The position numbers and the translations under genes were made by a program. DNA of 64,000 nucleotides from Scolanthus callimorphus (taxonomy: Eukaryota > Cnidaria > Anthozoa > Actiniaria > Edwardsiidae), in the NCBI GenBank assembly GCA_033964015.1, contig CM066922.1, positions 27,088,961 through 27,152,960 on the forward strand. Reading direction: 5' to 3'. This document shows positions 12,857 to 63,290 of this stretch, piece by piece (position 1 is the stretch's first letter; each line of letters begins with the position of its first letter). The notes under the pieces are model-generated. The model worked only from the letters and a program-made list of their open reading frames with translations. It searched no databases and had not been told where the DNA came from.

Positions 12857-13760
12857 CTAACCTTCTTGAAGTACAACAGCTTGAAAGGAGTTCTGGACTG
12901 TCTTATCACAAACAATGTCCCTTAGATAATGTCGTCTAAAAGTGGACTCTTTTTTCCAGTTGGCCATGTCCAAAATCTCACTGCAGGACAGCCCTTTTGC
13001 CTTAGCCTTGGAAGTTGACGCACCCCTAGTTGAATGGGCACGAAATTCGGATGTGTCAACCCCAGACTGCTTCATAATCTCTACAAGCCACCCTGCGATT
13101 GTGCATGGTACTACCTCCTTATGAGGTCGGATATAGCTCAAAAGTAACTGATGTTTCTCTTTATCTGCCCGCCAAGGCCTAGATCGTTCCAAATAACAAG
13201 TAATGGTGGAAAAAAACACAAAACTTAATAGGAGGTTGACCTTTTCTTCTCGATTTGGTCAGCTTGGCTAGCTCAAAGCTAATGGAGTTGACATTCATAG
13301 TCATATATCGGATGTCAAGGGCCATGAGATCTGAGGATCTCCCAGCAGAAGCAAGTGCCAAAAGCATACTTAATTTAAGTGTCAAACACTTGTCTGAGAG
13401 GGAGGCATTGTCCCCAAGAGAGTGAATGTAGCTCAGTACTTTATCCACATCCCAAGTCACCACATACCTAGGCTGAGGTGGCTTTGCATTGAAGCAAGCA
13501 TTTAGGACTTTACAAATCAGATCATGCTGTCCCACCTTAACTCCATCAATAGGTTTATGAAAAGCAGAGTAGCTCCGTAAGGTAGTCAGCTATAGAGGCC
13601 ACAGAGGAGTGAAATGGATCAATCTTCCTTTGACTACACCAGCAACTCCACTGTTTCCAGGCGCTGTTGTAAGCTCCTGCAGTGGACTTCCGCCATGAGT
13701 GGGAGCGGAGTAAATTGGCTGTTTGCTCTGAAACTCCACCTGTAAGCAAGTTTTGCCTGT
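12857..13760 (-). pseudogene. DIRS tyrosine recombinase, frameshifted
   Basis: The recombinase cuts and rejoins DNA to integrate the element. An N-terminal SAM-like stretch (SWRKSTAGAYNSAWKQW) is fused in frame to the end of the pol frame. After a break near 13550 a second frame carries the first catalytic arginine (AGRSSDL). After another break near 13200 a third frame has the HxxR box (AHSTRG) and the tyrosine region (FRRHYLRD). The R-H-R-Y set is therefore present but split over three frames. It lies at the 3' end of the element, just inside the complementary region, as in other DIRS elements. Confidence 0.85.
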
Positions 13761-16500
13761 AACCATCCAGGCCGCTAGATGCAGGTGGCCCTGAAGAATC
13801 AAGGGGTGTGGCTGTTGGTTGGGCGAGAGTAACAGATTCCTCAATGGAGGAAGCAGGATTGGTTGTCTGCAAGACATTTCCAAAAGGACTGGGTACCATG
13901 CCTGTGCTTGCCAGGCTGGTGTTATCAGCACCATTGTTGCTTGGTCCTTCCTTATCTTTGCCAGGCAACGACAAATCAGTGAAAACGGGGGAAAGCTGTA
14001 TGCCTTCAGAGTTGACCAAGGGATCTGAAAGGCATCTGTCCCCTGTGCGAAGGGGTCCGGAAACCAACTCACATAATTCTGGAGTTGAGTGTTCATGCGA
14101 TCTGCAAACAGATCTATCGAGAAGGGTCCCAGATGGGTTCAGTTTCCAATTGCTCGAGTCTTTGAAATGTCTCGACTGCCAATCTGCCTCGTGATTCAGC
14201 TCCCCCGGCAAATATTCTGCCGTCAGGGTAAGCTGTTTGCTGAGAGCACACTCCCAAAGTTCCTGGGCTATCCCTACTAGTATGGGGGATCGTGTCCCCC
14301 CCATTTTTAATAGGTAGGAAACTGCTGTTCTGTTGTCCATACGTAAATGGACATGAAGCTGTCTTTGATTGTTGGTGAATGCTCTCAAAGCAAACAGAGC
14401 TGCCTTTAGTTCCAAGGCATTTATGTGCAGGAGAGATTCCTCTGGGGTCCAAAGCCCCCTGGTGAAGTTCACCTGGCACACTCCCCCCCAACCCTTCAGT
14501 GATGCATCGGTTGTAATTATCAAATCTGGGGCTGGGGAGATTATTGACTTCCCATTCCAAGTGGACAGTTGATCGATCCACCACTGGAGGTCGTCCCGAC
14601 ATTCCTTGTTCAGTGGAACCACTGAATTGTACCCCTTCCCTAATAACAGGCCTTTTACCTGTAACATCTGTAAATGTCTGTAATGAAGGGGTGCTGGAAG
14701 AACTGCTTGCATAGTTGAAGTCAGTTTCCCAATAATTTGAGAGAGTGTTCTCACAGAGGCACTCTTCTCCAAAATCAGATCCCTGCAAGATTGAACAAGT
14801 TGGAGGATTTTTTCCTGTGGTAACAAAAGGTTCATATCGATAGAGTTGATGACAAAACCAAGGTATTCCATGCTCTGTGCTGGATTCAACACTGATTTTT
14901 TCCAGTTTATCACAAAACCTAAATGTTGAACTAGCCAAAGGGTTGAGTCTCTGTCCCTCAAAATACCCTTTTGAGTTTGATTGAAAACAATAATATCGTC
15001 TAGATATATAATCATTCTCAAGCCCAGTCTCCTTAGCAGGGCCACAACTGGCTTTAAAAGCTTCGTAAACAGAAGAGGGCCAGGTCCTAACCCAAATGGG
15101 AGGCAAGAAAACTGGTACCTCAAGTTTCCATAAATGAAACGTAGAAAGGGTTGGTGTTGTTTGCTTACTGGCACAGTAAAGTAAGCATCTTTGAGATATA
15201 TTTTTATCATCCAATCCCCACTCTGGATTAAATGCTTTAGTAAATACAGTCCCTCCATTTTGAAATGTTGGTAGGCTACATAAGAGTTTAACTCTTTCAA
15301 ATTGATCACCGGTCGGTTCCCCCCATCTTTTTTCTTGACAAGAAAAACCGAGCTCAAAAATTCCCCTTTCTGGGGAGAGACCACCTGAATCGCCCCTTTC
15401 TGCAACATCTCCGAAATTTCTTGATTTATTGCATTCCTCTCTGACTGGCTGTGAAATGTCAGAGGAGGGGTCTGGGTCTGACATGGATATTTGAGGAAGG
15501 GAATCTGGATTCCCTCCACCATTTGCAAGATGAAATGATCCTGAGTCAGTAATTTCCAGTTGCCCACAAAATGCTGGAGTCTCCCAGCCAACCGGAGGGG
15601 TCTGGACAAGATTGAGGTGTCCATTACCATTGCTAATAGCACAGGGTGGACCTGGTTAGAACCAGATGATTGGTCACATCCAAAGTTTTGGTTTGCAGTT
15701 GCGAAAGGGTTTTGAAGTTCAGGTGATCTCTTATGGACCCTGAATCTAACCAACTTGCCTTTAAAATATCCTCTGTTGGGGCCTCTTGCCCTGAAGGATA
15801 CTGATCTGCCCCCACCCCTGTGACGAGATGGGGGGGTGCCTCGAAAGGGCGGCTGGGAGGACCTGGAAGCTGGTCTGTAAACCTCTTTCCTGTTGGAGGC
15901 TGAGCCTTTGAAGGAGACATTACGAGGTCTAGACGAACCCGACAGGTGAGTGGATATCTCCTTAGTAGATTTCCGAATCTTGGTTGCAGTGCGTAGGGCT
16001 TTGTAAAACTTTTTCCCAAACAACTTGTTGTGGGAGTGAGACAGAGAGGACTCATGCTTGGTCAAAAGTTTTCTGGCTTTTTTCAAATCGCCAGTGAGGC
16101 GCCCCAAAATGCTTAGTCTACGGGCGTAAGTTAGACTCACGTTGGCCTGTCCCAGGAGGGTAACAGACTGTTCCACCAACTTAAGACAGTCAAACAAATC
16201 CAATTCATCTGTGGATTTTCCCTCACGGACCTTTTCCAAGGTCAGCCAGAGCTTTCCCAGAGGGCCCATAACGTTAGTTATCCGAGCTTGTGTTTTTGAA
16301 AGTGTGTTGTCACTTTCCTTGCCATAGGATTTATTTAGAGACTCAAAAATCTCGTCCAAGTAGTCATCTACTCTAGGAGTAGTCAAGCATTTCGTCCCAG
16401 GCGGTGGATTAGCATCGAGGACTGACTCCTGGATGGTCTTGTCCCTCACAAAGTACGTGAACTTATCATTCAAGAAATCTTCCATGCCTTGAGACAGCAC
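13555..16500 (-). pseudogene. DIRS gag/RT/RNase H polyprotein, 981 codons
   Basis: Residues ~1-300 are gag-like and end in an Arg/Gly/Ser-rich nucleic-acid-binding stretch. Reverse transcriptase follows at ~340-570, with the FLVKKKDGG and INLKELN boxes and the catalytic YLDD at ~498. RNase H is at ~655-780 (TTDASLKGWGG, ALELKAAL and a D in RMDNRTAV). Near residue ~790 (about 14125) a small deletion shifts the frame: the expected DLFADRMNTQL and methyltransferase-like region (VSWFPDP, DAFQIPW) continue in another frame at 13590-14096. The long frame remains open by reading into the recombinase N-terminus. The frame is also open upstream of 16500, so the Met shown is not a natural start. Confidence 0.85.
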
Positions 16501-16850
16501 AAGCTTTTGGCGGGCTTTTGCACCCGTGTCAAATCTCGTGTATTCACTATCCTCGTTCTCTTTCGAGGGACCGACGACGCTTTCTCGTTTCCGTCGTTTA
16601 GGATTAGCTTCACTAGAGGAGCTAGAGGAACTAGCATCGCTATCGCTTCCCGAACTATCCTCGTCTGAGGAGGATTTTGACCGGGTTTTGACGAACTGGA
16701 GATCGCTTTTGGCCTCCGTTTGTTCGCTGAATGAGAAGAGTCGTTCGACTTTGTCGACGACTGAACTTCATCTAAAACACCCTCTTCTGGAGTGTTAACA
16801 TCAAGCTCCCCTTCTTCAGAAGCGGGGTTGCGATTCTGATCGGTCATGGT
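16470..16850 (-). pseudogene. DIRS gag N-terminus, frameshifted
   Basis: A frame starting MTDQNRNPASEEGELDV is acidic and Ser-rich, as in DIRS ORF1 starts. Its acidic/Ser-rich character continues in a different frame (SSSDEDSSGSDSDA at ~16630-16680), which leads directly into the pol frame. One indel around 16740 therefore separates the start codon from the rest of gag. This is a sequence-based inference, and no single frame covers the whole protein. Confidence 0.6.
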
Positions 16851-18664: not shown

Positions 18665-18834
18665 ATCACTACCCAGTCGTTGGCATCAGCCTCGTTCCAA
18701 ATTCTGTATCTGTTTGGGTCAAGAATGGCACAGTGATCGGTACACTCAACACGGCGACACAATTCCCCGGAGAGCTCTTCACTTATGAGCTGATGGAACA
18801 GAATAGTCTTCCATTCTCTATACACAGTAACCAG
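18665..18834 (+). CDS. Receptor exon 1 seen here: cadherin repeat, first half
   Basis: The acceptor TTTTCACACTTCAG precedes the exon and GTATCA follows it. It enters in phase 1 and leaves in phase 0 (56 full codons). The product has cadherin-like spacing: P-x-V near the start, NSVSVWVKNGTVIGTL matching the usual E-x-x-x-x-G-T-x-V-x-x-L strand, then FTYEL and PFSI. The calcium-binding acids are mostly missing, so this is a degenerate cadherin repeat. It is not the real 5' exon, because it begins inside a codon. Earlier exons were not found. Confidence 0.7.
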
Positions 18835-19424: not shown

Positions 19425-19563
19425 ATGGTCGTCAAAAGAGTTGTGCTCCAGGATTACCAGAATATAGTATCGAATGCCAAAGATCTGTACGTCTACGTTT
19501 CTATACGGACTGTGGGATCACAGAGTGGAACAGCGGTCAACGGACTTTACATCAATATCCTTA
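19425..19563 (+). CDS. Receptor exon 2: cadherin repeat, second half
   Basis: It is bounded by an ACATACAG acceptor and a GTAAGC donor. It enters in phase 0, matching exon 1, and leaves in phase 1. The product contains VVLQDYQN, where LDYE is usual in cadherins, followed by the alternating DLYVYVSIRTVG strand and GLYINIL at the end. With the next exon it forms INIL-NDAP, the cadherin linker that is classically DxNDNAP. The exact phase match to exons 1 and 3 and this linker make the exon call strong. Confidence 0.78.
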
Positions 19564-21875: not shown

Positions 21876-22060
21876 ATGACGCACCAGACGTTGACATGTG
21901 TCTGGTAAAGAAGAGTATCCCTGAGAGTCAGCCCAAGGGAGCTGTAGTGGGACAGTTACTAATAGAACATACAGATCCACCCAAGTACTCTTGCGCGCTC
22001 ACAAGCTGTTGCCATCAGATTGGGCAAATCAACCCACAGACTTTCCCTTACCAATGCAAG
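21876..22060 (+). CDS. Receptor exon 3: next cadherin repeat, first half
   Basis: The acceptor is TTTTTCAATCCAG and the donor GTAAAA. It enters in phase 1, matching exon 2, and leaves in phase 0. The product starts NDAPDVDMC, the linker motif, followed by KKSIPESQPKGAVVGQLL, a good match to the cadherin I-P-E-x-x-P-x-G-x-x-V-G-x-L segment. A run of cysteines (CALTSCC and YQC) is unusual for a cadherin repeat and may form local disulfides. The next exon's phase does not match this exit, so the junction is unresolved. Confidence 0.75.
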
Positions 22061-23212: not shown

Positions 23213-23449
23213 GTTTCTTCGTATTATTGTTTGATGTGCTGGTGGACAGCCCTGATGATAACTCTGTTAACCGACCAAGCCACGACGCTTCTTCCTTGTT
23301 TTATGTTGACGACAGCCTTGTGTTGAGGAGTCGGAAGTCGCTACAGTATAATGACTACCCTAGTGATGAAATCAAGGTTCCGATTAGTTGCCATGATTTC
23401 AGTCGGCCCTTACATTTTATAGGAGACACATATAATGTCTCTGTATTAG
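23213..23449 (+). CDS. Receptor exon 4: cadherin repeat, second half (start uncertain)
   Basis: The open frame ends at a GTAAGA donor in phase 1, which fits exon 5. It contains SSLFYVDDSLVLRSRKSLQY, resembling the cadherin F-x-I-D-x-x-x-x-L-x-x-x-K-x-L-D-Y segment, then DEIKVPISCHD and YNVSVL, like the final beta strands. The best acceptor is AATTCAG at 23206-23212, which needs phase-1 entry, whereas exon 3 exits in phase 0. Other AGs inside the frame would need phase 2. The 3' boundary is firm, the 5' boundary is not. Confidence 0.65.
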
Positions 23450-23599: not shown

Positions 23600-24053
23600 G
23601 ACCTTAATATGGTACTTGTCTAAAACGAAGCATTGTCTGCGATTGTCTGCCTTAATAATAAAATGCACATGCATATTGTTGAACGTAATATGGTGTTTGT
23701 CTAGAATGTAGCAGACCTCGTTGTCATTTCTTGCTGTTTTTGGCCTTAATATGGTGTTTGTCTAGTATGTAACGAAGTACATCGCCCGGCTTTATGATTC
23801 ATTTCATGCTGTTGATGACATTAATATGGTGTTTGTCTAGAATGTAGCAAAGGACAACGCCCGGCTTTATGAATCATTTCATGCTGTCGTTGGTGTTGTC
23901 TAGAATGTAACAAAGGACATCGCCCTGCTTTATGATTCATTTCATTCTAGTGCTGTTGGCATTAATATGGTGTTTGTCTATAATGTAGCAAAGGGCATCG
24001 CCCGGCTTTATGATTCATTTCATGTTGTTGACATTAATATGGTGTTTGTCTAG
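23600..24053 (+). repeat. Intronic minisatellite built from a 3' splice-site region
   Basis: Units of about 60-85 bp contain TTAATATGGTGTTTGTCTAG, then AATGTAGCAAAGGACATCGC and CCGGCTTTATGATTCATTTC. The last unit ends exactly at the acceptor of exon 5 (TTTGTCTAG before 24054), so upstream copies are near-copies of the true acceptor plus the first exon bases. Copies with CTAG occur near 23703, 23763, 23840 and 23903, and one near 23980 has CTAT instead. Confidence 0.85.
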
Positions 24054-24217
24054 AATGTAGCAAAGGGCGTTGTCCGCCTCCCCCTGACTGTGGCCGGTGC
24101 GCTATTGGCGGGATTTGCATAGACAAGGAGGGAGGCTACATATGTAAGTGTACTCCCGGCTACAGAGGAGAAAAGTGTGAGCAAGATATTGATTACTGTG
24201 TACCAAACAAGTGCGAG
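24054..24217 (+). CDS. Receptor exon 5: EGF module
   Basis: It enters in phase 1, matching exon 4, and leaves in phase 0 at GAG-GTGAGT. The product has a complete six-cysteine EGF: DCGRCAIGGICIDKEGGY, then ICKCTPGYRGEKC. The Gly/aromatic positions before the last cysteine are conserved. It ends DIDYCVPNKCE, the D-x-D-x-C start of a second, calcium-binding-type EGF completed by the next exon. EGF modules next to cadherin repeats suggest the membrane-proximal part of a Fat- or hedgling-like ectodomain, though no laminin G domain is seen. Confidence 0.85.
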
Positions 24218-26773: not shown

Positions 26774-26919
26774 AGAGGAACATGTCAAGATGGTGTGACA
26801 TCGTTTACGTGTAAATGTAACAAAGGCTTCACTGGCGCGTTGTGTGACAAGACCAGGTCACACTGCAGCCAGTGTAAACTTGGCACCCTGTGTGTCATGT
26901 TCGTCAAGGCTCCTATAAG
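26774..26919 (+). CDS. Receptor exon 6: second EGF module and start of a third
   Basis: The acceptor TCTTCCACAG and donor GTCAGT bound it. It enters in phase 0, matching exon 5, and leaves in phase 2. The product continues the EGF begun in exon 5: GTCQDGVTSFTCKCNKGFTG, then ALC, completing six cysteines. It goes on SHCSQCKLGTLCVMFVKAP, apparently the first half of another EGF whose last cysteines must come from a later exon. Exon 7 does not supply them and has the wrong phase, so one exon in the 7-kb intron is unseen or was lost. Confidence 0.8.
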
Positions 26920-27437: not shown

Positions 27438-27902
27438 TACCTCTTTTACGTCTTTTTACGTCTTTACTGGTCTGATGCGGAGCCCATTACCTCTGGGTTG
27501 GCTACAGGCACAGGAGGAGATGATTATCTTTTTGGAACGATTTTCCAATGTTTTTCTAGCTGTGCACTAAACGAACTAAACGAACAATTTCTCGCACCTC
27601 AGCATTTACAGTTCAGTGTGTGAAACACAACCTCATAAGAAGCAACTTCTCGCGCTTTGGCTAAAATGCATAGTGCAATACATAAAACAGATCCTCTTTA
27701 TAACCAACAACTTCTCGCACCTCAGCAGAACGTTACAGAACCTCGTGATAACGAAGCTCACGCTAGAGGCAACAACCCATAAAATTGTTCGGCAAAAAAT
27801 ATTGTAGCAGGGTATGTAAGTAAATCCTGCAACCCTCCTCGCGCTTTGCGGTTAAATGATCTTCCACTGTGCAGAACCTTGACACGTTTGCAAAGCTACA
27901 AT
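27438..27902. other. Intron interval with no recognised feature
   Basis: There are short imperfect repeats of CAACTTCTCGC(G/A)C and CACCTCAGCA(T/G) at 27590-27730, and no exon-like frame with an EGF ending. Confidence 0.5.
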
Positions 27903-28045
27903 AGACCGAGTCAGCCTTGTTTACTTCCGGTAGATCACGTGACCTGAATTGGGAAAACAAAGCCAAGCGCGCGAAATATTCCCGCGCTACAAATCTTGTA
28001 AGACGTGTGTCGCTTCTTCTCCTTTCCCTTGATGAAAAGTTGAAA

Positions 28046-29663
28046 ATGGTCCATTGTTGCTGTGTGAAGGAATGTAATAATAATTCTACTGTTCCCGGAC
28101 TGTCATTTCACAAGTTTCCGGAAAACTCCGGCTTGGTCGAGGTGAGGAAATCTTTATTTTTGTGCAAATATACTGTCTTCAAAACAAACCTACAGGTTAC
28201 GATGCGGTTTGAAACATCTTGACTAAACTTGTCAAAACATATGTTTTTTTTACTTTCTTTCAATAGCTTTGGACCCGAAAGATCAAAAGGAATCATCCGA
28301 AGGACGTGTTCGTAATAGGCGACCATACCAAAGTGTGTTCTGCTCACTTTATCAACAGCGACTTTATAAATCCATTCAGTGATAAACGGCGACTCCGCGC
28401 GGACGCCATTCCTTCGGTGTTTGCTTGGTCAAAGCAAGTCGTGCCGAGGCCTTTCATAGAGAAAAGGCGACGATTATAAGATGAAAAACAAAAAGAATTG
28501 GCCGAGGAAACAGACACAGCTTCAGAGGGAGAGGGTGTGTACGAGGAAACCGAGAATGAAAAGTATGTATCGCGGCGAATTCAAGTTGAAATGGCAGTGA
28601 CGTGTTTACATCGTTTTTCGCTTGAAGTACTGATGCAAATGGCTGATACTCCAGGGAAAAAAGCAGAATACATTTGCCATTTCACCGGTTTCAATTCATA
28701 TGAAATGTTTATGGAGGTTTTGGACTTTGTTTTTCCTGGATTAGACCGTGGAAACATAATATACTGTGACACTGTTGCAGCAAACGAGAACAAAATTGAT
28801 ACCTCGGTACTTTTTGATAGCGAAAGTCAGGGCTCATCTGCCGCCGATTCAGACGAGGAATATACCATTTCTAGTACCAACTCAAGGGATCATAAGCTAC
28901 CTGTACAAGACGAATTCCTTTTATTAATGATGAAGTTAAAGCTCGGCTTGACTAACTTGGATTTAGCAGTGAGGTTCGTTATATCTAAGGGCGTGTCTCA
29001 AACATCATTAACAGTTGGCTCAACTATTTGTACATTTTCTTCGGAAAATTTAAAGTCTGGCCTCACCGTGACATTATTATCGAGCAAATGCCGCCAAACT
29101 TTAAACAGAAATATCCCGTGAATGTTGTCATCATAGATTGCACAGAGTTGAAAATCGAATGTCCATCTTCTCTGGTGAGACAGTCTCAGAGCTACTCTAG
29201 TTATAAGTCTACAAACACACTCAAATGTCTGATTGGAGTGGATGCCAAAGGTGGCATTATGTTCGTGTCCCAGTTATACACTGGACTAATTTCAGACAAA
29301 GAAATAGTTGTGAGAAGTGGCTTCTTGAAACTTTTACAAAGCAAACTTGATGTTGGGGAGATTTTAGCTGGAGATTCAATAATGGCAGACAAGGGGTTTG
29401 ACATAAGTGAAGATATCTCTAAACTTGGCCTAAAGTTGAACATTCCCCCATTTCTGGGACAACAATCTAAATTCACCGAATCTGATGTAATAAATACTCA
29501 AACAGTAGCACAACACAGGATTCACATTGAGAGAGCAATCGGGAAAGTAAGGAGGTTTCTTGTATTCTCCAGGAGAGTGCCAGTGAGCATGCTAGGCACT
29601 GTAAATCAACTATGGACTGTTTGTTGCATGCTTTCAAATTTTATGGACCCAATATTAGAGTAG
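28046..29663 (+). pseudogene. THAP-domain DDE transposase, broken
   Basis: Exon 1 (28046-28141) encodes MVHCCCVKECNNNS and HKFP, the C2 part of a THAP zinc finger. A GTGAGG donor and CAATAG acceptor remove 28142-28266. Exon 2 continues with LWTRKIKR, KVCSAHF and RLRADAIPSVF, giving the C2CH ligands and the THAP tail. An in-frame TAA follows at 28477-28479. The frame then stays open through a helix-turn-helix region (LPVQDEFLLLMMKLKLGLTN) and shifts near 29030. The last frame holds the DDE_4-type catalytic core: D in VVIIDCTE, D in AGDSIMADKGFD and E in IHIERAIGK. The transposase would recognise the TIRs and cut the element out, and this copy cannot make it in one piece. Confidence 0.85.
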
Positions 29664-29714
29664 GGTTTCATTCTGAGCATGAGTTGTGAAGTGCTTACAC
29701 TTACAATAGCTACA

Positions 29715-29968
29715 ATGGGCAATTCCAGAAAATAATATATGTACCCCCGCCATGGGCGGCACCAGTTTTTGCCCCCCCCCCCCATGCATCCAGAATTTCC
29801 AAAATGGCTTCCCCCCATGCAGGCAGAATTCCTGAGAGGTGTTAACCTACCTTCCAGCTTAAAAAAAAACCATGCAGGCAGAATTCCGAGCTTTAAAACC
29901 CCCCTCCCATTCAGAATTTCGAAATGCCACCTGTCCCCAGGGTACATATATTTTCTGGAATTGCCCAT
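29715..29968. mobile_element. C/G-rich MITE nested in the ISL2EU-like element
   Basis: The ends ATGGGCAATTCCAGAAAATA and TATTTTCTGGAATTGCCCAT are inverted. Inside are a C run and three copies of the GCAGAATTCC / CAGAATTTC type phrase. It resembles the TGTGTGGTTCCAGAAAT family in sequence and design. Confidence 0.75.
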
Positions 29969-30021
29969 AAGCAGTAACAGTAAGCAGTTCTATATCAATA
30001 CCTACATTTACACTTTCACTA

Positions 30022-30143
30022 TAGAGCAGACTTCACATGACTGTGGTGAGTAATTCGCAATTAATCACTCCTATAGGTTTTATTCAGAATTTGTGTAATT
30101 ACTTTGTGATTGGTTTCACAACAGTCATGTGAAAACTGCTCTA
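30022..30143. mobile_element. 122-bp MITE with TAGAGCAG ends
   Basis: The ends TAGAGCAGACTTCACATGAC and GTCATGTGAAAACTGCTCTA are inverted. The same ends bound 49837-50085, so it is a family. It is nested in the ISL2EU-like transposon. Confidence 0.8.
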
Positions 30144-30178
30144 TGATGAGTGAGAAAAAGGAAAAATCACTCTTTTCA

Positions 30179-30340
30179 TACACCTTATTCCAAAATGGCT
30201 GACTGACCCTTGATGTCTTGTTCTCATGAAATTATTCTTTTCTTTTATATTCACTGAAGCTCGAGACAAAAGATAATTTCATGAGAGCGAGGCAACAAGG
30301 GTCAATGGAACAAAAATTCACCATTTTGGAATAATGTGTA
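30179..30340. mobile_element. Small MITE with TACACCTTATTCCAAAATGG ends
   Basis: The left end is mirrored by CCATTTTGGAATAATGTGTA. Inner arms pair CTCATGAAATTATCTTTT-like stretches (TCTCATGAAATTA with TAATTTCATGAGA). It is non-coding. Confidence 0.75.
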
Positions 30341-30924
30341 TTCAGTCTATCAGACATTCATATTTATTATTAAAATAATGTATGGACTTATCCTGGATAC
30401 CAGAGTCTCCAAGCTTAACAAAACGAAGCTGTATATAAATGTGTCCCATTGATTTGTTTAATTCTTACCACATTTCTTGTATTTACTTTTTAATATTGTA
30501 CAGAAAAAGGATATTTGATATCCATATTTGATTCAAATCATATATCACATGATACATTACAATAATTTGTAAGTTGTAATTTTTTAAATATAATTTGTAA
30601 ATATTTTGTAATAATATAAATATTTATATGTACATACATAATAATATATCATATTTCTTGAGCCTGATTAAAGAATAATTGTTCTTTATGCACTGCAAAA
30701 TAAAAACATCAGGACCACTTTGGATATGGAATGCTAACTTGGACGAGAGGCTAAAGGGAATAAAACTAATAAACAATATTAATTTATTCCACTTCAAATT
30801 TTACCCCCCAAAAGGTACTACCAGGGCCTGATTTTAATCCCTAGAAGTTATGACGAGCACTCCCCCCCCCCCCCTTTCAGTAAGAAAAACAGCTTGGCCA
30901 TTTTCTGAATAAAGAAGAGGGTGC

Positions 30925-33178
30925 TTATAGCTGGAGTTGCCCATTACACACAATCTGGTCTGCAAAGTATGTGACACAGTGATCTGTATAGAACTCTTGC
31001 ATCTTGGGAAGGAGGGTTTCTCTCCAATAATGATTATCAAAGTAGACCCTTTCTACATTTATATTTCTTGATCCAGCCAAGAAAACAATGAAGTCACACC
31101 AGCTAAGTCCTGAGAGCGCAAGTTGGCCCTGAACTTGGGCATAGTAGCCAGCTGAATGTTCTTTCTTGAGCCGTACCTCATTATTAACCACATTGCAGAA
31201 GAACTTCTCGTCCTGGCAGGCCTCTAGGATACTATGATGCCGCCATGTGTATGGGCACTTGATCTCAATCAGCCCAAAGTGGCTTCTTTCTGTCGGATCA
31301 AACACTTTCCCATCTGGGGTAGCCCCTAGGAATGGATGAGCTGGGTTGACAACTAAACCGCATTCATACACGGTTAAGAGGCGGTGCACCTTTTTTTGCA
31401 TTTTCTGGCAGTACATTGTTCTAGCCACAATTTCATTTTGCCTCCCATGCTTGATTGATGTAACATTTGACAAGTCCTTGCTTTCAAATAAACTCTTCAT
31501 AAATGAGTCTGATGGTTCCCTTTTTCTTGTTAGAACACGCCCAAAGTTTGATGCAGTTAATCTATACTTCCTTTCCCTCTTCCACTCAAAACTTCTTGTC
31601 TGCTGCACTGTGCATTTGTTTATTCTTTTTGCTTCAGTCATAGTTACTTTGATTTTATCAATAACTATTTTCATAGAAGGGGTGTCTGGAAGTGATGGGA
31701 TGTCAGTAACTCTGTCTTGGACCATGGGGAGATCAGGGAAGGGTTCTATATGGCTTGCCTGGTTTTCTTTTGGTAAAATCATCTGATTTTTCCTCACCAA
31801 ATTTAATACAGATTTCTTTTTCTGCACATCATGAAATTGGTAGCCTAAATAGGAACCCAAAGGTACGTTACCAACCACTGTATTTACATTTTGACTAATT
31901 TCTTGATCTTTAAGGAGGTATGAAAATGGTGGGATCTTGTCATGCTGAGACATGGAGTTGCAAGCACGTTTTATTTTATCTTCACTGAGCTTGACTTTTT
32001 TGGCAGCATTATAGCTTACATTCAACTGGATTTCGTTTTCGTGTGTTGTCTCGATCTTTGCTTGCCTTGGCAAACACACATTTCATTACAGGTTCAGCTT
32101 TGATGTCTTGAGTGCGCGGTTTGTGCCACACCTGTGGAAGGCTGGTACATGTCTGGTCAGCTGGAATCTCAGCAGCATCTGTCATAGTCCAGTGAGCAAG
32201 GAGGTACAGCATTGCAAATATGTGGTTGCAGTGACCACCAGCACTGAAATAAAAATAAGGGAATAAGTATTTTGATGTTCATAATTATTAATCTAATCAA
32301 AAATAAGTTACGGTAACTGTTTGATTCAAAAGAAACAAAAGGGATGTTAAAATATGGAATGATTACCTATTACACATTCTATAAAAATAAGAGGCTTTTT
32401 ATTCTATAGTATTTTTATTTCTGTAAAGTCAGAATTGGAAAACAGGAAAGTTGTATGTTGCTGTTTTCAATTTGCAATGTTGCAGTCAAAGGAAACCTCT
32501 CCTCCCTTGGGGACTTTTCACTATATGATATAAGCTTATTATTATTATTATTATAAGCTCACGAAATTTCTAGCAGTTTGAAAAGTTAAATTCAGAAACT
32601 CTGGTGGGATAAGAATCTTGTTTTTAAAAGCTGATGCTTGCAAGTGGAAACACTGGACTCGGTACTGAGCTCTGGATGCTTTAAAAAGTCATAAACTTAA
32701 ATAGATTGCCAACATATTTGCAGCACCGAAATAAAAAAGTTGTCTTGTGCGTGTAACTCGTGTTGCAAACGAGAGTAAGTCCAAAAGCTTAATCAACCCG
32801 AAACACCCGTAACTTATTTTAGTGTTGTTGTTTTTTGGTCAACGTTTAATCAAGAACTTACCCGGCTTTACAGTTGCATTGCGAGGAGACCACATGGCCG
32901 TCTTGCTTCAACTCAAGATAAAAAGAGTGAGCCACTTCATGTTTCTTTTGACTTCGACAACAGTTGCCCTTCACGAAAACATTGTCACGGTCACCGACTT
33001 GACCTACATAAACGTCTCGAATATAATTCTCTGCAAAATATTTGTAAGCTTTATCTCCAACATTTTCTTTTCCACAACCCTTAAGATGAGAAATGACGTG
33101 ATTCCAGGTGATTCTAGGCGTTGATTTCATGGATTTTGTCCACTCAATAGACGAAGGAAGGCCCGACGCGGCCGCCAT
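30925..33178 (-). pseudogene. SWIM zinc finger plus YqaJ-type nuclease gene of the transposon
   Basis: Exon 1 (33178-32862) starts MAAASGLPSS and ends in CNCKAG just before a GTAAGT donor. Exon 2 starts at 32243 after TTTCAG and supplies GHCNHIFAMLYLL, completing a CxC...CxH SWIM finger. A one-base frame change near 32012 breaks the link to the main domain, which then runs open to 30925. That domain has the YqaJ/lambda-exonuclease signature: HGRQNE, GATPDGKV (Asp) and LIEIKCPYTW (E-x-K). It is a DNA-degrading or end-processing enzyme thought to assist ISL2EU transposition. It is convergent with the transposase and about 1.3 kb from its end. The shift could also be a sequencing error. Confidence 0.8.
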
Positions 33179-33319
33179 CTTTGTTTGTGTTTTCCCATTT
33201 CAGGTCACGTGACCCTGAGGCTGATTCGGTCTATTATAGCTTCCCCTGATGAAAACGGTGACCGGTGACCAAGAACAGTACGCAACAGTATTTTACCTGC
33301 TTGCGAGATATATATTAAG

Positions 33320-33958: not shown

Positions 33959-34161
33959 GTAAGGCTCGTCGCCGTCGTTCTCCTGCCGACTACTATGTAG
34001 AAATCCTCAAAAGCACTCCCTTGAGTGGCAAGGACCAGCGCACAATACTCTACTTGACCATCATGGAAGCGCAGTATAACTACCAACCCATGCTGGCATC
34101 ATATGCATGCAAACTACTAGCCAAGTCCAAGAGGGAGTGCGTTGGGGAGAAGGACTGTCAG
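33959..34161 (+). CDS. Receptor exon 7: membrane-proximal segment
   Basis: The acceptor TACTCCTTGCAG and donor GTAACT bound it. The open frame enters in phase 1 and leaves in phase 0. The product begins KARRRRSPADYYVEIL, continues with a helical-looking, lysine-rich stretch and ends ECVGEKDCQ. The RRRR run looks like a furin-type site, so the ectodomain could be cut here. I recognise no named domain. Exon 6 leaves in phase 2, so it does not join this exon directly. Confidence 0.7.
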
Positions 34162-34637: not shown

Positions 34638-34817
34638 GTCCTAGAAGCAATTGGAGAACAATGCCCAGGTACTGGCAAAGGAGGGAGAACAGGAGCCCAG
34701 TCGTCCGGCCTGGGTGGCGGTGCTACGGCTGGTGTGGCTATTGTGATTGTGGGGGTCCTGTGTATCTTGGCCTTGTTAGCGGTGTTCTACTACCGACGAA
34801 AGTACAAGAAAGCAAAG
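34638..34817 (+). CDS. Receptor exon 8: transmembrane helix
   Basis: The acceptor is TCTCTTGTAG and the donor GTAGGT. The exon is exactly 60 codons, phase 0 on both sides. A Gly/Ser-rich linker (GLGGGATA) leads into the hydrophobic stretch GVAIVIVGVLCILALLAVFY, then the stop-transfer basic run YRRKYKKAK. This gives a single-pass type I topology, with the cadherin/EGF part outside and exons 9-10 inside. Confidence 0.85.
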
Positions 34818-37975: not shown

Positions 37976-38173
37976 CCTGACGAGCGCCCGGTCATTTACA
38001 GTTCCCATGACAACCGCCTTGATTTCTCCAACCCTGTGTATGACAACCGCCCTGATGCAGACCCTAATGATTCTGTTGTCATGGAGCAGCTTGCGCGTGA
38101 CAGACTAGCCAAGGAAGGCCTAGTGGCCAATAACCTCAACCCAACTAATGTAATCAAGTGCAACGATATTACG
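37976..38173 (+). CDS. Receptor exon 9: cytoplasmic tail, NPXY motif
   Basis: The acceptor TTTTCACTTCCAG and donor GTAAGA bound 66 codons, phase 0 on both sides. The product starts PDERPVIYSSHDNRLDFSN and includes NPVYDNR, an NPXY motif that can bind PTB domains and also a Y-x-N motif for SH2 binding. It continues with MEQLARDRLAKEGLVANNLN. It follows the transmembrane exon in phase. Its 3' part is triplicated in tandem (38101-38439). Confidence 0.8.
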
Positions 38174-38439
38174 GTAAGAAGAGGAGAGCGGGATACCTGT
38201 GGTAAACTCTAGACAGACTAGCCAAGGAAGGCCTAGTGGTCAATAACCTCAACCCAACTAATGTAATCAAGCGCAACGATATTACGGTAGGTAGAGGAGA
38301 GCGGGATACCTGTGGTAAACTCTAGACAGACTAGCCAAGGAAGGCCTAGTGGCCAATAACCTCAACCCAACTAATGTAATCAAGCGCAACGATATTACGG
38401 TAGGTAGAGGAGAGCGGGATACCTGTGGTAAACTCTGTA
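38101..38439 (+). repeat. 113-bp tandem triplication of the 3' end of exon 9 with its donor
   Basis: The unit runs from CAGACTAGCCAAGGAAGG through the donor to GGTAAACTCTAGA. Copies start at 38101, 38214 and 38327 and differ by a handful of bases. Copies 2 and 3 have donor ACG-GTAGGT instead of ACG-GTAAGA. Reading through the first donor meets a TAG within 13 codons, so the extra copies cannot simply lengthen the protein. Confidence 0.95.
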
Positions 38440-38529
38440 AATATCATTACGTAATATTTACATCCAGGCAGAAGTCTATACGTCATTCAATCCCTTCATT
38501 TATTTTTGATAATATTCCACTTAAATAAG

Positions 38530-39390
38530 AGAAGGCAGGCAAATTCTTGGGTGTCTTCATAGACAAAATCTCACCTGGAAGTGCCATAAAAATTACATAT
38601 GTAAAAAGATCACAAAGTCTGTTGGCATCCTGTTCAGATATCGTTTTTTGTTCTACTAAATTATCACTATACTATAGCATATTAGTATAATTGCTCAAGT
38701 GATTATAAGAATTTCCGCGCGCTGATTGGTCGAGAGGTTCGTTTTCTCTCGCTATAATCACGTACAGGTGATTATAACATTGAAAGGATTGGGCGTGCGC
38801 GTTTTAAGACCTTATATCACTTTGATCAATTATACTAAATCAATAGTTGCGTTAGGCTCCGTGATTATCGGCGAATAGTCCCCTCGACTTCGTCTCGGCG
38901 ACTATTCGCCGATTATCACGTCGCCTTGGGCGACTAATTGTTAAATATACCCCTATTTATTCTACTGTACAACAGCATGGTCTTCAACTTATGCCTCCAA
39001 TCTGAATAATTTTTTTTTTACTTTAAAAGAAAAATTATGATCTGCTCCTTTATTCCCACAACTAAATATATTGGATATTTACAAAATAAATCATTTCCAT
39101 GTTACTACTAAATTTTTGTTTTCTTATTACCACCAACTTTTGCCCCCAGTCTTTTCAAATTTGTTTGTAACTAGTCGTCAGCTCCATGATTATTACACTA
39201 GAAATTCTGATCGTTACCGTTCCCACGCTTGTCGCAGAAAAGAAAAAAAAATCACTATTCTTTATCAAGGCCCAAACATATTGAACTCCCTACCTTTATC
39301 TGTCGTATCATCTATTAGAGGGGGCCTCCTCTCACAAGCCTGGTGGCTTTTTGAGGCCCTCTCGCCCCCCTCTTGGTATGTGTAAATTAA
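38530..39390 (+). pseudogene. Non-LTR retrotransposon (LINE) 3' remnant
   Basis: KFLGVFIDK at the start matches the thumb region after reverse transcriptase in LINEs. After an insertion (38692-38947) the frame resumes with HQLLPPVFSNLF, LHDYYTRNSDRYRS and ILYQGPNILNSLP, the usual C-terminal motifs of these proteins. Stops and frameshifts are present. It ends near an AAATAAAATTGAATTG tail. It lies in the last intron of the receptor gene. Confidence 0.8.
38692..38947. mobile_element. Composite MITE with GTGATTATCGGCGAATAGTC palindrome
   Basis: The first part carries TAGTATAATTGCTCAAGTGA and its inverse. The second part is a palindrome, GGCTCCGTGATTATCGGCG mirrored by CGCCGATTATCACG. It interrupts the LINE remnant. 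The same composite arrangement is at 53398-53615. Confidence 0.7.
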
Positions 39391-39762
39391 TGGCAAATAA
39401 AATTGAATTGATTTGATTTGAAAAGTGCGTACGACACCAGCCCCAATTAGTTTTTTAGCGGCAAACGCGCACGCTATCACGAGATTTCTGCCGACGATGT
39501 GGACTCGCTTGACGGTGTGCGCGCCGTTTCTTTCATCTACAGACTTCTCCTCAATCAACGTTGTCCCACAATATGTAGCGACTGTCATTTCCCAAAACGA
39601 TCGTTAATAAGCAGTCCGTGACGTCCCTAGGCCACGCGCAAACAAGCGCAGCCTGGGAACGAGGCTGCGCGAGCTTTGATTTGAGTTCCATACGTTTATT
39701 GCGTGCTCCAGCTTGATTGCATCATCATCTAAATCTCGCATTTTTTAAATATCACATTACAG

Positions 39763-40605
39763 GTACGAGAGAATGAGCTCTACCGACCCCCTGGACAGGA
39801 AAATCAGGAACCGGGAATCCCAATCACCGTCAGGAACCCTTGTTATGCCGGAGCGTCCGGATCGTCAATAAGTGCGAGGCCGAAATTGAATAATGTGTCA
39901 GACGAGAAACCTACCAAGCCTATAAATACTGTGGACCTTAAGTCAGGCAAGGAATTCTCGGAAGATTCCGAGAGCAACGATGACCATTACGAGACGGTTG
40001 ATGACATAAAGAAGGCCGTAAATGTGGATGTGGCAGTTGATGAGGATGTGGCAGAGATTAAAGCAAGTATAAAAGCGCAAGAAAACCCCGTGGGTTGCAA
40101 GCCACTATATGATAACAAGGCTGCTTCAAAAGCACCGCGATATGAGGAGGTGCCGCAACCAAGCAGGCGCCACAAGGGACGTAATAGGTCCAGTGCTAAG
40201 GAGGAGGATCCTAAATCACAATATGAGAACAGCCCTCTGAACAATGCGCCCCGTTATGAAGAAGTACCCCGTTTAAACAAGAGGTCCTCTTCATATGAAA
40301 ATGTTCCTCCCTCGAAACATGACAAAACGGAACAAAAACTCACTCGGAGATCTAAGGGCTCGGTACCCGATAGCGAAAAGAAGGGCAATGTTGTATACGA
40401 GAATTACGACCAAGCTCCCGATCAACCGGCTGACGAATTCGAGAGCCCAGATGTGTTTGATGAGGAACCGGAAGTGACGTCACGGATGGAGGAGCCTCTT
40501 TACGAGGTGATACCTCCAGTAGGCCTTGTAGGGGGCGAAAACGTCCGGCGGCGAGGCATGTTACGGAGTTTATCTTCAGAGAAAGCGAAGGGTATGAGGA
40601 ATTAG
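39763..40605 (+). CDS. Receptor last exon: tyrosine-motif-rich cytoplasmic tail
   Basis: The acceptor ATCACATTACAG gives phase-0 entry, matching exon 9, and 280 codons run to a TAG. The product starts VRENELYRPPG and is hydrophilic and low-complexity. It carries YETV, YDNK, YEEV (twice), YENS, YENV, YENY and YEVI. YxN sites fit the Grb2-type SH2 consensus and YxxV/I sites fit other SH2 or sorting adaptors. No kinase or catenin-binding domain is seen, so this is not a classical cadherin tail. I found no clear AATAAA downstream. Confidence 0.85.
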   Translation, partial: VRENELYRPPGQENQEPGIPITVRNPCYAGASGSSISARPKLNNVSDEKPTKPINTVDLKSGKEFSEDSESNDDHYETVDDIKKAVNVDVAVDEDVAEIKASIKAQENPVGCKPLYDNKAASKAPRYEEVPQPSRRHKGRNRSSAKEEDPKSQYENSPLNNAPRYEEVPRLNKRSSSYENVPPSKHDKTEQKLTRRSKGSVPDSEKKGNVVYENYDQAPDQPADEFESPDVFDEEPEVTSRMEEPLYEVIPPVGLVGGENVRRRGMLRSLSSEKAKGMRN

Positions 40606-50217: not shown

Positions 50218-52012
50218 GTAGGAGGGGCTAGAGCAACCTGGAACTTATACTAGCTAGTGGACCAACCTGGAACTCATACTAGTTAGTAGAACAACCTGGA
50301 ACTCATACTAGCTAGTAGAACAACCTGGAACTCACACTAGCTAGTGGAACAACCTGGAACTCATACTAGCTAGTAGAACAACCTGGAACTCATACTGGCT
50401 AGTGGAACAACCTGGAACTCATACTAGCTAGTAGAACAACCTGGAACTCATACTAGCTAGTGGAACAACCTGGAACTACTAGCTCGTGCAACAACCTGGA
50501 ACTCATACTAACTAGTGGAACAACCTGGAACGCATACTAGCTAGTAGAGCAACCTGGAACTCATACTAGCTAGTGGAACAACCTGGAACTCATACTAACT
50601 AGTGGAACAACCTGGAACTCATACTAGCTAGTGGAACAACCTGGAACTCATACTAACTAGTGGAACAACCTGGAACTCATACTAGCTAGTGGAACAACCT
50701 GGAACTCATACTAGCTAGTGGAACAACCTGGAACTCATACTAACTAGTAGAGCAACCTGGAACTCATACTAGCTAGTGGAACAACCTGGAACTCATACTA
50801 GCTAGTGGAACAACCTGGAACTCATGCTAGCTACTAGAACAACCTGGAACTCATACTAGCTAGTAGAACAACCTGGAACTCATACTAGCTAGTGGAACAA
50901 CCTGGAACTCATACTAGCTAGTAGAACAACCTGGAACTCATACTAACTAGTAGAACAACCTGGAACTCATACTAGCTAGTAGAACAACCTGGAACTCATA
51001 CTAGCTAGTGGAACAACCTGGAACTCATACTAGCTAGTGGAACAACCTGGAACTCATTCTAGCTAGCAGAACAACCTGGAACTCATACTAGCTAGTGGAA
51101 CAACCTGGAACTCATATTAGCTAGTGGAACAACCTGGAACTCATACTAGCTAGTGGAACAACCTGGAACTCATACTAACTAGCGGAACAACCTGGAACTC
51201 ATACTAGCTAGTGGAACAACCTGGAACTCATACTAGCTAGTGGAACAACCTGGAACTCATACTAGCTAGTGGAACAACCTGGAACTCATACTAGCTAGTG
51301 GAACAACCTGGAACTCATACTAGCTAGTGGAACAACCTGGAACTCATACTAACTAGTGGAACAACCTGGAACTCATACTAGCTAGTGGAACAACCTGAAA
51401 CTCATACTAGCTAGTGGAACAACCTGGAACTCATACTAGCTAGTGGAACAACCTGGAACTCATACTAGCTAGTGGAACAACCTGGAACTCATACTAACTA
51501 GTGGAACAACCTGGAACTCATACTAGCTAGTGGAACAACCTGGAACTCATACTAGCTAGTGGAACAACCTGGAACTCATACTAACTAGTGGAACAACCTG
51601 GAACTCATACTAGCTAGTGGAACAACCTGGAACTCATACTAGCTAGTGGAACAACCTGGAACTCATACTAGCTAGTGGAACAACCTGGAACTCATACTAG
51701 CTAGTGGAACAACCTGGAACTCATACTAACTAGTGGAACAACCTGGAACTCATACTAGCTAGTGGAACAGCCTGAAACTCATACTAGCTAGTGGAACAAC
51801 CTGGAACTCATACTAGCTAGTGGAACAACCTGGAACTCATACTAGCTAGTGGAACAACCTGGAACTCATACTAACTAGTGGAACAACCTGGAACTCATAC
51901 TAGCTAGTGGAACAACCTGGAACTCATACTAGCTAGTGGAACAACCTGGAACTCATACTAGCTAGTGGAACAACCTGAAACTCATACTAGCTAGTAGAAC
52001 AACCTGGAACTT
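50218..52012. repeat. 29-bp satellite array, about 61 copies
   Basis: The unit is TGGAACAACCTGGAACTCAT followed by ACTAGCTAG. Variants are TAACTAG, TAGAAC, CATGCTAG and a few single changes, with blocks of variants repeating in order (higher-order structure). Each unit holds CTAGCTAG, a self-complementary octamer. Degraded copies reappear at 52838-52905. Confidence 0.97.
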
Positions 52013-62019: not shown

Positions 62020-63290
62020 GTGACTAAGCACTTGTTCACCCAAGTGTGGTTATCTAAGGTTCATCCCTTCTTGAGATATTTCATTTTTCTCCTATGATGA
62101 CGTCATCGATGACGTCATACCTCGTGACCATGCTGTTGCACCCCCCTTGCCACTTAGATAACTTCACCCAAGTTGGTTGTCTGAGGTTCATCCCTTCTTG
62201 AGATATATCATTTTTTCTCCGATGATGTCGTCATCAATGACGTCATACCACGTGACCATGCAGTTGCACCCCCCTTGCCACTAAGATAACTTCACCCAAT
62301 TTTGGTTGTCTGAGGTTCTTCCCTTCTTGAGATATATCATTTTCTCCTATGATTACGTCATCAATGACGTCATACCACGTGACCATGCAGTTGCACCCCC
62401 CCCCCCCTTGCCACTAAGATAACTTCACCCAAGTTTGGTTATCTGAGGTTATCCCTTCTTGAGATATATCACTTTTCTCCTATGATGACGTCATCAATGA
62501 CATCATACCACATGACCATGCAGTTGCACCCTCCTTGCCACTTAGATAACTTCATCCAAGTTTGGTTGTCTGAGGTTCATCCCTTCTTGAGATATATCAT
62601 TTTTCTCCTATGATGACGTAATAAATGACGTCATACCACGTGACCATGCAGTTGCACCCTCCTTGCCACTTAGATAACTTCATCCAAGTTTGGTTGTCTG
62701 AGGTTCATCCCTTCTTGAGATATATCATTTTTCTCCTATGATGACGTCATCGATGACCTCATACCACGTGACCATGGAGTTACACCCCCCTTGCCACTTA
62801 AGCCGGGGAAATACGAGGCACAAAATCTCTCAACTTGTGGCGCAACATTGCTGCGTTGCAAGTCTAATGTTTGTTGCTCGTTTTTCATCAAATTCACAAC
62901 TTGTCGCGCAACATTTTGTCTTGATGATCACACATGCGAGGCCAAGGCGAATTTGGCTCCTTAGCACTCCATTTCTATTGACCAACCAACTTGAATCGTA
63001 GGCAAAATGTTGCGCGACAAGTTGTGTGTTTGATGAAAAACGAGCAACAAAGCCAGAATTTGTGTCTCAAAGTAGACCCGCGCTCTACTTCGCGCAACAA
63101 ATGTTTTTGTTGCGCGACAAGTTGTGGCGCGAGATGAAAAACGCGCAACATCGATCATCAACTTGCAACGCAACAATGTTGCGCGACAAGTTGAGGGACT
63201 TTGTGCCTCGTATTTCCCCGGCTTTAGATAACTTCATCCAAGTTTGGTTGTCTGAGGTCCATCCCTTCCCGAGATTTTTTAATTTTCTTA
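62020..63290 (+). repeat. 128-bp satellite with TGACGTCA sites, about 6.5 copies
   Basis: The unit holds CTTAGATAACTTCACCCAAG, TTCATCCCTTCTTGAGATAT, CCTATGATGACGTCATC, AATGACGTCATACCACGTGA and CCATGCAGTTGCACCCCC. The spacing between copies is 127-132 bp. Most units have two overlapping CRE/ATF-type TGACGTCA palindromes and a CACGTG E-box. A MITE interrupts the last unit (62801-63223). A short inverted piece recurs at 63409-63455. Confidence 0.95.
62801..63223. mobile_element. MITE with TTA duplication inside the satellite
   Basis: The ends AGCCGGGGAAATACGAGGCA and TGCCTCGTATTTCCCCGGCT are inverted, and TTA flanks both sides (62798-62800 and 63224-63226). Neighbouring satellite units give the empty site CCACTTAGATAAC. 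It carries six or more copies, in both orientations, of GTTGCGCGACAAGTTG, probably transposase-binding subterminal repeats. TTA/TAA duplication fits PIF/Harbinger. Confidence 0.92.

Follow-up and report, generated by a model that had tools for sequence, protein, structure and literature searches.

Classical cadherins signal through catenins, as set out in part of PMC13245172, and hedgling carries an N-terminal Hh domain adjoining a VWA domain (a section of PMC4054682). A Nematostella 'protocadherin Fat4-like', which may or may not be the gene considered here, is discussed in a passage of PMC12549020 as a component of Wnt/planar cell polarity signalling. We examined a cadherin gene family of Scolanthus callimorphus, one member of which lies in a stretch of 64,000 nucleotides (C12:27088961-27152960 of the 597-Mb genome; hereafter the window, with positions counted from its first letter). 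An earlier, sequence-only reading had proposed that the window encodes a cadherin/EGF receptor whose tail bears an array of tyrosine motifs for SH2 and PTB domains. This proposal holds for the family, in whose tails tyrosines are conserved and catenin motifs were not found, but not for the window locus. In our interpretation, to which we give a probability of about 0.6, the window holds a copy of a non-classical cadherin gene that arose by duplication and broke only recently, and the intact gene would encode a furin-processed adhesion receptor with a tail that docks PTB and SH2 proteins.

The membrane and tail portion of the window copy lies in three exons of the plus strand: exon T (34638..34817), with TAGVAIVIVGVLCILALLAVF as the transmembrane segment (its mean hydropathy is 2.89) and with a basic stop-transfer; exon C1 (37976..38173), with the tail portion bearing FSNPVYDN; and exon C2 (39763..40605), with the remaining tail and 11 of its 13 tyrosines, where the loss of one base close to the C-terminus has changed the ending, which reads GYEEL...SNA in the intact sister copy P3, described below. 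The three exons (180, 198 and 843 bases) have AG/GT borders, C2 closes with a stop codon, and together they form a single open frame, which verifies the proposed series of in-phase exons running from the membrane into the tail. The tail of 346 residues contains every tyrosine motif that had been named in it (NPVY; YDNR, YDNK, YENS, YENV and YENY; YETV, YEEV twice and YEVI), plus an NPCY absent from that list, and YENV also matches Yxx[VIL]. When the tail was compared with 20,000 shuffles of its composition, using motifs picked after they had been named, YxN (5 against a shuffle mean of 1.08, p 0.002) and NPxY (2 against 0.10, p 0.004) were enriched, as was tyrosine followed by aspartate or glutamate (10 of 13 tyrosines against a mean of 2.4, a count reached in 0 of 20,000 shuffles); the excess of Yxx[VIL] was marginal (5 against 2.1, p 0.042).

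A genome search with the tail exon gave nine matches. Four of them, on C12, are long and fall within 1.2 Mb, with tails 94-95% identical to the query; the other five, on C267 and C36, are partial and mostly interrupted by stops. The ten exons of the window copy (A-F, G, T, C1 and C2) recur in the same order in three sister copies on C12, which we call P2, P3 and P4, and all three align to the window from 18169 to about 42.16 kb. P3 forms a frame of 19 exons and 1939 residues with consistent splice borders and phases and no internal stop; the sequence ahead of its exon X1 was not found. P2 has five single-base gaps in exon X6 and two in X7, P4 has one in exon A, and exon C2 of P4 is 36 bases shorter. 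Exons X1-X4 of P2 and X1-X6 of P4 lay outside the compared stretches and were not counted as losses, and a stop within the P4 match to X6 was not taken as a lesion, as the match overruns the exon border. At 38099-38436 of the window, a 113-bp unit stands in three tandem copies (97% alike) and includes the 3′ end of C1 with its splice donor; P3 has six such units and P4 three, and the units could act as alternative splice donors. Remoter cadherin-repeat relatives with long open frames, at most 39% identical to the P3 repeats, lie at C14:9435810-9488190 and C9:7212925-7221885 (genome G000).

In Hydractinia, the allorecognition family Alr combines varied ectodomains with a shared signalling tail. 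Four such similar tails on a single contig would suit a cluster of this type, but the common ectodomain exons diverge no more than the tails do (nonsynonymous divergence, dN, 0.005-0.013 versus 0.009-0.023), two of the other three copies carry small lesions, and the anemone orthologues share one architecture, which leaves an allorecognition family highly improbable.

The window copy was found to be broken. Compared with P3, it is without the eight 5′ exons X1-X8 and without exon I, a juxtamembrane exon that follows F and precedes G in all three sister copies. A genome search in which the best candidates were scored found no X5-X7 near 27.1 Mb; near-identical copies of these exons lie on C12 at 25.94, 26.51 and 26.93 Mb, on its other strand at 26.63-26.71 Mb, and on C267, and the 10 kb beyond the upstream edge of the window hold short matches to the copies only. 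Exon I was located in each sister copy on C12 and partially on C267, but not in the window. When F is joined to G in the window, a stop follows immediately; our initial guess of an additional exon between the two was dropped, as the phases show that F joins exon I directly. Exon D (23242..23449, plus strand), which encodes the second half of cadherin repeat 10, has lost its splice acceptor (TG here, AG in P2, P3 and P4), and the C-terminal residues are frame-shifted. Nine exons short of the intact P3, the window copy cannot encode, as it stands, the receptor that had been placed at this locus. Hence, the window locus is most likely a young pseudogene, that is, a recently broken duplicate.

The intact gene would give a single-pass receptor. 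P3 starts with Cys-rich/TSP1-like and EGF modules at its N-terminus, followed by ten cadherin repeats, two EGFs, a possibly SEA/MAD-like juxtamembrane domain with an RxRRS site, the transmembrane segment and a tail some 350 residues long. The ten cadherin repeats, of which the last three are degenerate, were obtained by splitting P3 at its linkers. Full-length relatives of P3 are Nematostella P0001 (51% identity, 97% coverage), Actinia P0002 (45%, 100%) and Exaiptasia P0003 (41%, 100%). Another relative from Nematostella is P0004 (44%, 82%), and one from Acropora muricata, with 1201 residues, stops before the membrane (42%, 38%). The Pfam scans covered residues 1-1550 of P3 and the full length of P0001-P0004; they gave Cadherin in five stretches of P3 (152.8 bits, cut-off 28.8), which places it in the cadherin superfamily, along with EGF domains in P3, and TSP1 in P0002-P0004 only. 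P0004, Nematostella 'protocadherin Fat 4 isoform X2', comes from a contig as long as that of P0001 and ends soon after the membrane, with no tyrosine tail. The search with P3 gave 203 proteins at E <= 0.001 among 7987 scored, and most of the 120 listed are other cadherin-repeat proteins, many of them bacterial. When the query ran from the juxtamembrane domain of P3 to its C-terminus, only P0001-P0003 were found at E <= 1 (7974 candidates). A query made of window exons only found no tail relative at E <= 10 among 7993 candidates, the true relatives (1871-2022 residues) exceeding the length limit of that query. Judged from these matches, the predicted receptor is common to sea anemones and this anthozoan. 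The sequence-only reading had recognised no named family for it, and likewise no published description turned up in open-licence PMC papers, which fall far short of the whole literature.

We aligned the tails of P3, the window copy and three anemones (Nematostella, Actinia and Exaiptasia). In the three anemones, seven of the 14 tyrosines of the P3 tail are invariant; for residues other than tyrosine the figure is 48 of 339 (Fisher p 0.002). The expected conservation of the tyrosines in orthologues was thus borne out for one half of them and not for the other. The invariant tyrosines stand at FxNP[VS]Y, LYxxP, the second NPxY, the YE adjoining DDIK, PRYE, Y[DE]N and PLYxxIP. Tyrosine followed by aspartate or glutamate is enriched in all five tails, an ITAM-like pair (immunoreceptor tyrosine-based activation motif) is present in P3 and the window copy and not in the anemones, and a C-terminal SxA, which the window copy has lost, is present in P3 and in the anemones. 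YxN is a fitting site for Grb2, as pYEEI-like motifs are for SH2 domains of the Src family. The emphasis laid earlier on YxN and Grb2 proved overstated: there are five YxN sites in P3 and 1, 4 and 3 in the three anemones, with a single site kept in position in all, and it is NPxY and the acidic-flanked tyrosines that persist instead.

In relatives of the LDL receptor, FxNPxY binds PTB-type clathrin adaptors without phosphorylation. Since FxNP[VS]Y is present in P3, the window copy and all three anemones and the second NPxY is invariant, the tail could serve chiefly in uptake or sorting, the remaining tyrosines being secondary. This is rather unlikely given the five further invariant tyrosines outside NPxY and the enrichment of acidic residues after tyrosine in every tail.

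Outside the membrane, an R-x-[KR]-R site is present in 5 of 5 sequences (P3, the window copy and the three anemones); in the window copy, exon G (33959..34161, plus strand) encodes the juxtamembrane domain with the furin-type site RRRRS. This suggests that the receptor may be cleaved by furin beside the membrane. The structure model of the juxtamembrane domain was good and puts the site in a predicted loop of a putatively SEA/MAD-like domain, a type with a ferredoxin-like alpha/beta fold. Its first Foldseek match was PCDH15 (E 0.0017), and unrelated folds had a similar VIA Z; Notch was not among the 50 VIA matches listed, which carries no weight against a shared fold. A Notch-like, furin-processed and possibly force-sensitive SEA/MAD switch, combined with the cadherin ectodomain and the dense docking tail, might define a cnidarian receptor class in which tension between cells in contact is turned directly into tyrosine signals, the tail possibly being set free; we put this forward tentatively, at odds well below even.

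From the computed architecture and the conserved basic site and tyrosines, we infer the following course for the predicted receptor. Furin would cut it en route to the surface, and the two halves would remain associated as a two-chain adhesion receptor. PTB proteins would be recruited through FxNPxY and the second NPxY, and a cytoplasmic tyrosine kinase would phosphorylate the acidic-flanked tyrosines, on which SH2 proteins could then dock.

Several observations weigh against this interpretation, with regard both to the receptor and to the broken state of the window copy. Pfam recognised no TSP1 in P3, where the designation 'TSP1-like' rests on position and cysteines. A sequence search of the PDB gave no solved structure related to the juxtamembrane domain, Foldseek gave no match at E 0.001, and the unrelated ACE2 and nucleoporins scored equally high in VIA. 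Among the other seven tyrosines of the P3 tail, four are kept as tyrosine in none of the anemones, one in a single anemone and two in two. As for the locus, assembly error is possible for the small indels in the copies, the ratio of nonsynonymous to synonymous divergence (dN/dS) between the window copy and P3 is 0.30, and among the changes unique to the window copy, replacements (18, one of them a post-frameshift artefact, versus 13 silent; none at a tyrosine) are fewer than neutrality predicts (p 0.012). These low ratios imply constraint on the window copy that ended only recently or persists. Hence, as judged by sequence divergence, either this copy was lost a short time ago or part of the window locus is still in service.

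Continued service would be expected if the window copy functioned as a short form, driven by a different promoter or assembled from different exons, that amounts to a membrane-bound tail with little ectodomain. Its tail is open and keeps all tyrosines except the last, dN/dS in the tail is 0.23-0.30 to the other copies, and splicing of exon B or exon D to G would keep the frame. However, any signal peptide is missing along with X1-X8, the lesions at exons D and I, at the F-G junction and at the C-terminus all affect this copy, and replacements are concentrated on it (18, versus 5, 8 and 7 in the other three). We regard a functional short form as improbable and retain the view that the window most likely holds a young pseudogene.

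The other ectodomain exons of the window copy are also on the plus strand. Exons A (18665..18834) and B (19425..19563) encode the two halves of the degenerate cadherin repeat 9, and exon C (21876..22060) encodes the first half of the degenerate repeat 10, completed by exon D. Exon A is found in P2, P3 and P4 and has AG/GT borders; B and C are likewise identified by sister copies, splice borders and profile comparison. Exon E (24054..24217) encodes an EGF, and exon F (26774..26919) encodes an EGF and the beginning of the Cys-rich juxtamembrane part; both exons occur in the sister copies. The two EGFs claimed from the sequence are real (Pfam EGF 24.7 bits for E, with EGF matches in the PDB, and 23.9 bits for F), and the two degenerate cadherin repeats claimed with them stood by one method and not by others. 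Repeats 9 and 10 of the window copy (exons A-D) were unrecognised by Pfam and by phmmer against the PDB, and profile-profile comparison linked them to regular repeats of the same family, with best matches of 96.2% (repeat 9 to repeat 1) and 95.8% (repeat 10 to repeat 4) versus less than 1% for four control blocks. The match was uneven, repeat 9 scoring less than 1% against repeats 4, 6 and 7, and the structure model of the anemone stretch matching repeats 9-10 was too poor for use (mean pLDDT, the predicted local distance difference test, 41).

Between exons F and G, a stretch (27902..33233) is without counterpart in P2, whose flanking matches abut. Inside it are a DDE_Tnp_4 transposase (28480-29660, plus strand), with a helix-turn-helix in the neighbouring frame, and a YqaJ-type exonuclease domain (30928-32082, minus strand). 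A 75-bp minisatellite at 23724-24066 has a unit that contains the splice acceptor and first bases of exon E, and the arrays in the sister copies are longer. Upstream of the truncated gene, a long open frame at 13558-16767 (minus strand) contains a reverse transcriptase domain (71.7 bits) and represents a retroelement. Further tandem arrays lie at 1821-2688 (45-bp unit, 19 copies), at 62035-62800 (128-bp unit, 6 copies) and at 50234-52011 (29-bp unit, about 61 copies, 95% alike), the last in a stretch with strong AT skew.

We then compared the receptor with known cadherins. Neither the beta-catenin nor the p120 motif was found in any of the five tails by two patterns, as given in part of PMC13245172, from which distant variants may escape; the lack of beta-catenin binding had already been pointed out by the sequence-only reading. 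No seven-transmembrane or LamG family, as in CELSR/Flamingo, was detected by Pfam at E <= 1 in P0001-P0004, the predicted receptor having a single transmembrane segment and then the tail, and LamG, as in Fat and Fat4, was likewise not found in the scanned part of P3. Pfam found no Hh or VWA domain, as in hedgling, in P0002-P0004, which begin with a methionine and a hydrophobic stretch; the P3 model starts at X1. By the features tested, the predicted receptor is not a classical cadherin, CELSR or hedgling, and LamG, the one feature of Fat that was compared, was not found in it. A true Fat4 or CELSR orthologue is what the database names of P0001-P0004 and P0006 would imply, and such an identity is very doubtful in view of the single transmembrane segment, the lack of LamG and seven-transmembrane families in P3 (residues 1-1550) and P0001-P0004 and the score of the Fat4 N-terminal model in P3 (24.9), below its cut-off of 35. 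Because the tested defining features of CELSR and the LamG of Fat were not found, the names Fat4 and CELSR1 are misleading, and they could mislead work on planar polarity.

Hedgling and lefftyrin are also large, EGF-bearing cadherins from outside Bilateria, according to sections of PMC4054682 and PMC12221298, but no Hh, VWA or LamG domain was found here by Pfam in P3 (1-1550) and P0001-P0004. Protocadherin-15 and cadherin-23 have a MAD domain next to the membrane, with at most 17% identity over the aligned part; here, in contrast, EGFs stand between the cadherin repeats and the domain, and there are a furin-type site and a tyrosine tail (the comparison covering PCDH15 and CDH23 without their tails). 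The likeness to Notch, which has a furin-cut SEA-like domain, lies in the EGFs, the predicted juxtamembrane alpha/beta domain with a furin-type site and the transmembrane segment, in that order, and a similar way of working may be supposed by analogy; the juxtamembrane profile, however, had no Notch match in the PDB sequence search, the Notch matches being confined to the EGFs of the window copy, and the tail composition is unrelated. A sponge cadherin, P0008 (EukProt, 'Protein fat'), resembles the receptor in its cadherin repeats, EGFs, juxtamembrane part, transmembrane segment and tyrosine-rich tail with NPLY and NPVY, but it was not recovered by the query from the juxtamembrane domain to the tail of P3. 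Kinship of the two juxtamembrane parts was unsupported (hhalign 0.2%), and the likeness may be convergent.

The orthologues P0001 ('protocadherin Fat 4'), P0002 ('CELSR1-like') and P0003 ('fat-like') share with P3 the domain order, the RxRRS site and the tyrosine tail; they differ in most YxN sites and in the repeated YEEVP stretch, and the window copy is incomplete beside them. In summary, compared with the catenin-based signalling of classical cadherins, this is a cnidarian cadherin tail without catenin motifs in which NPxY, other tyrosine sites and the furin-type site are nevertheless kept across anemones and this anthozoan. If our interpretation is correct, it would give non-bilaterian animals another way of passing from adhesion to signalling, one testable in Nematostella.
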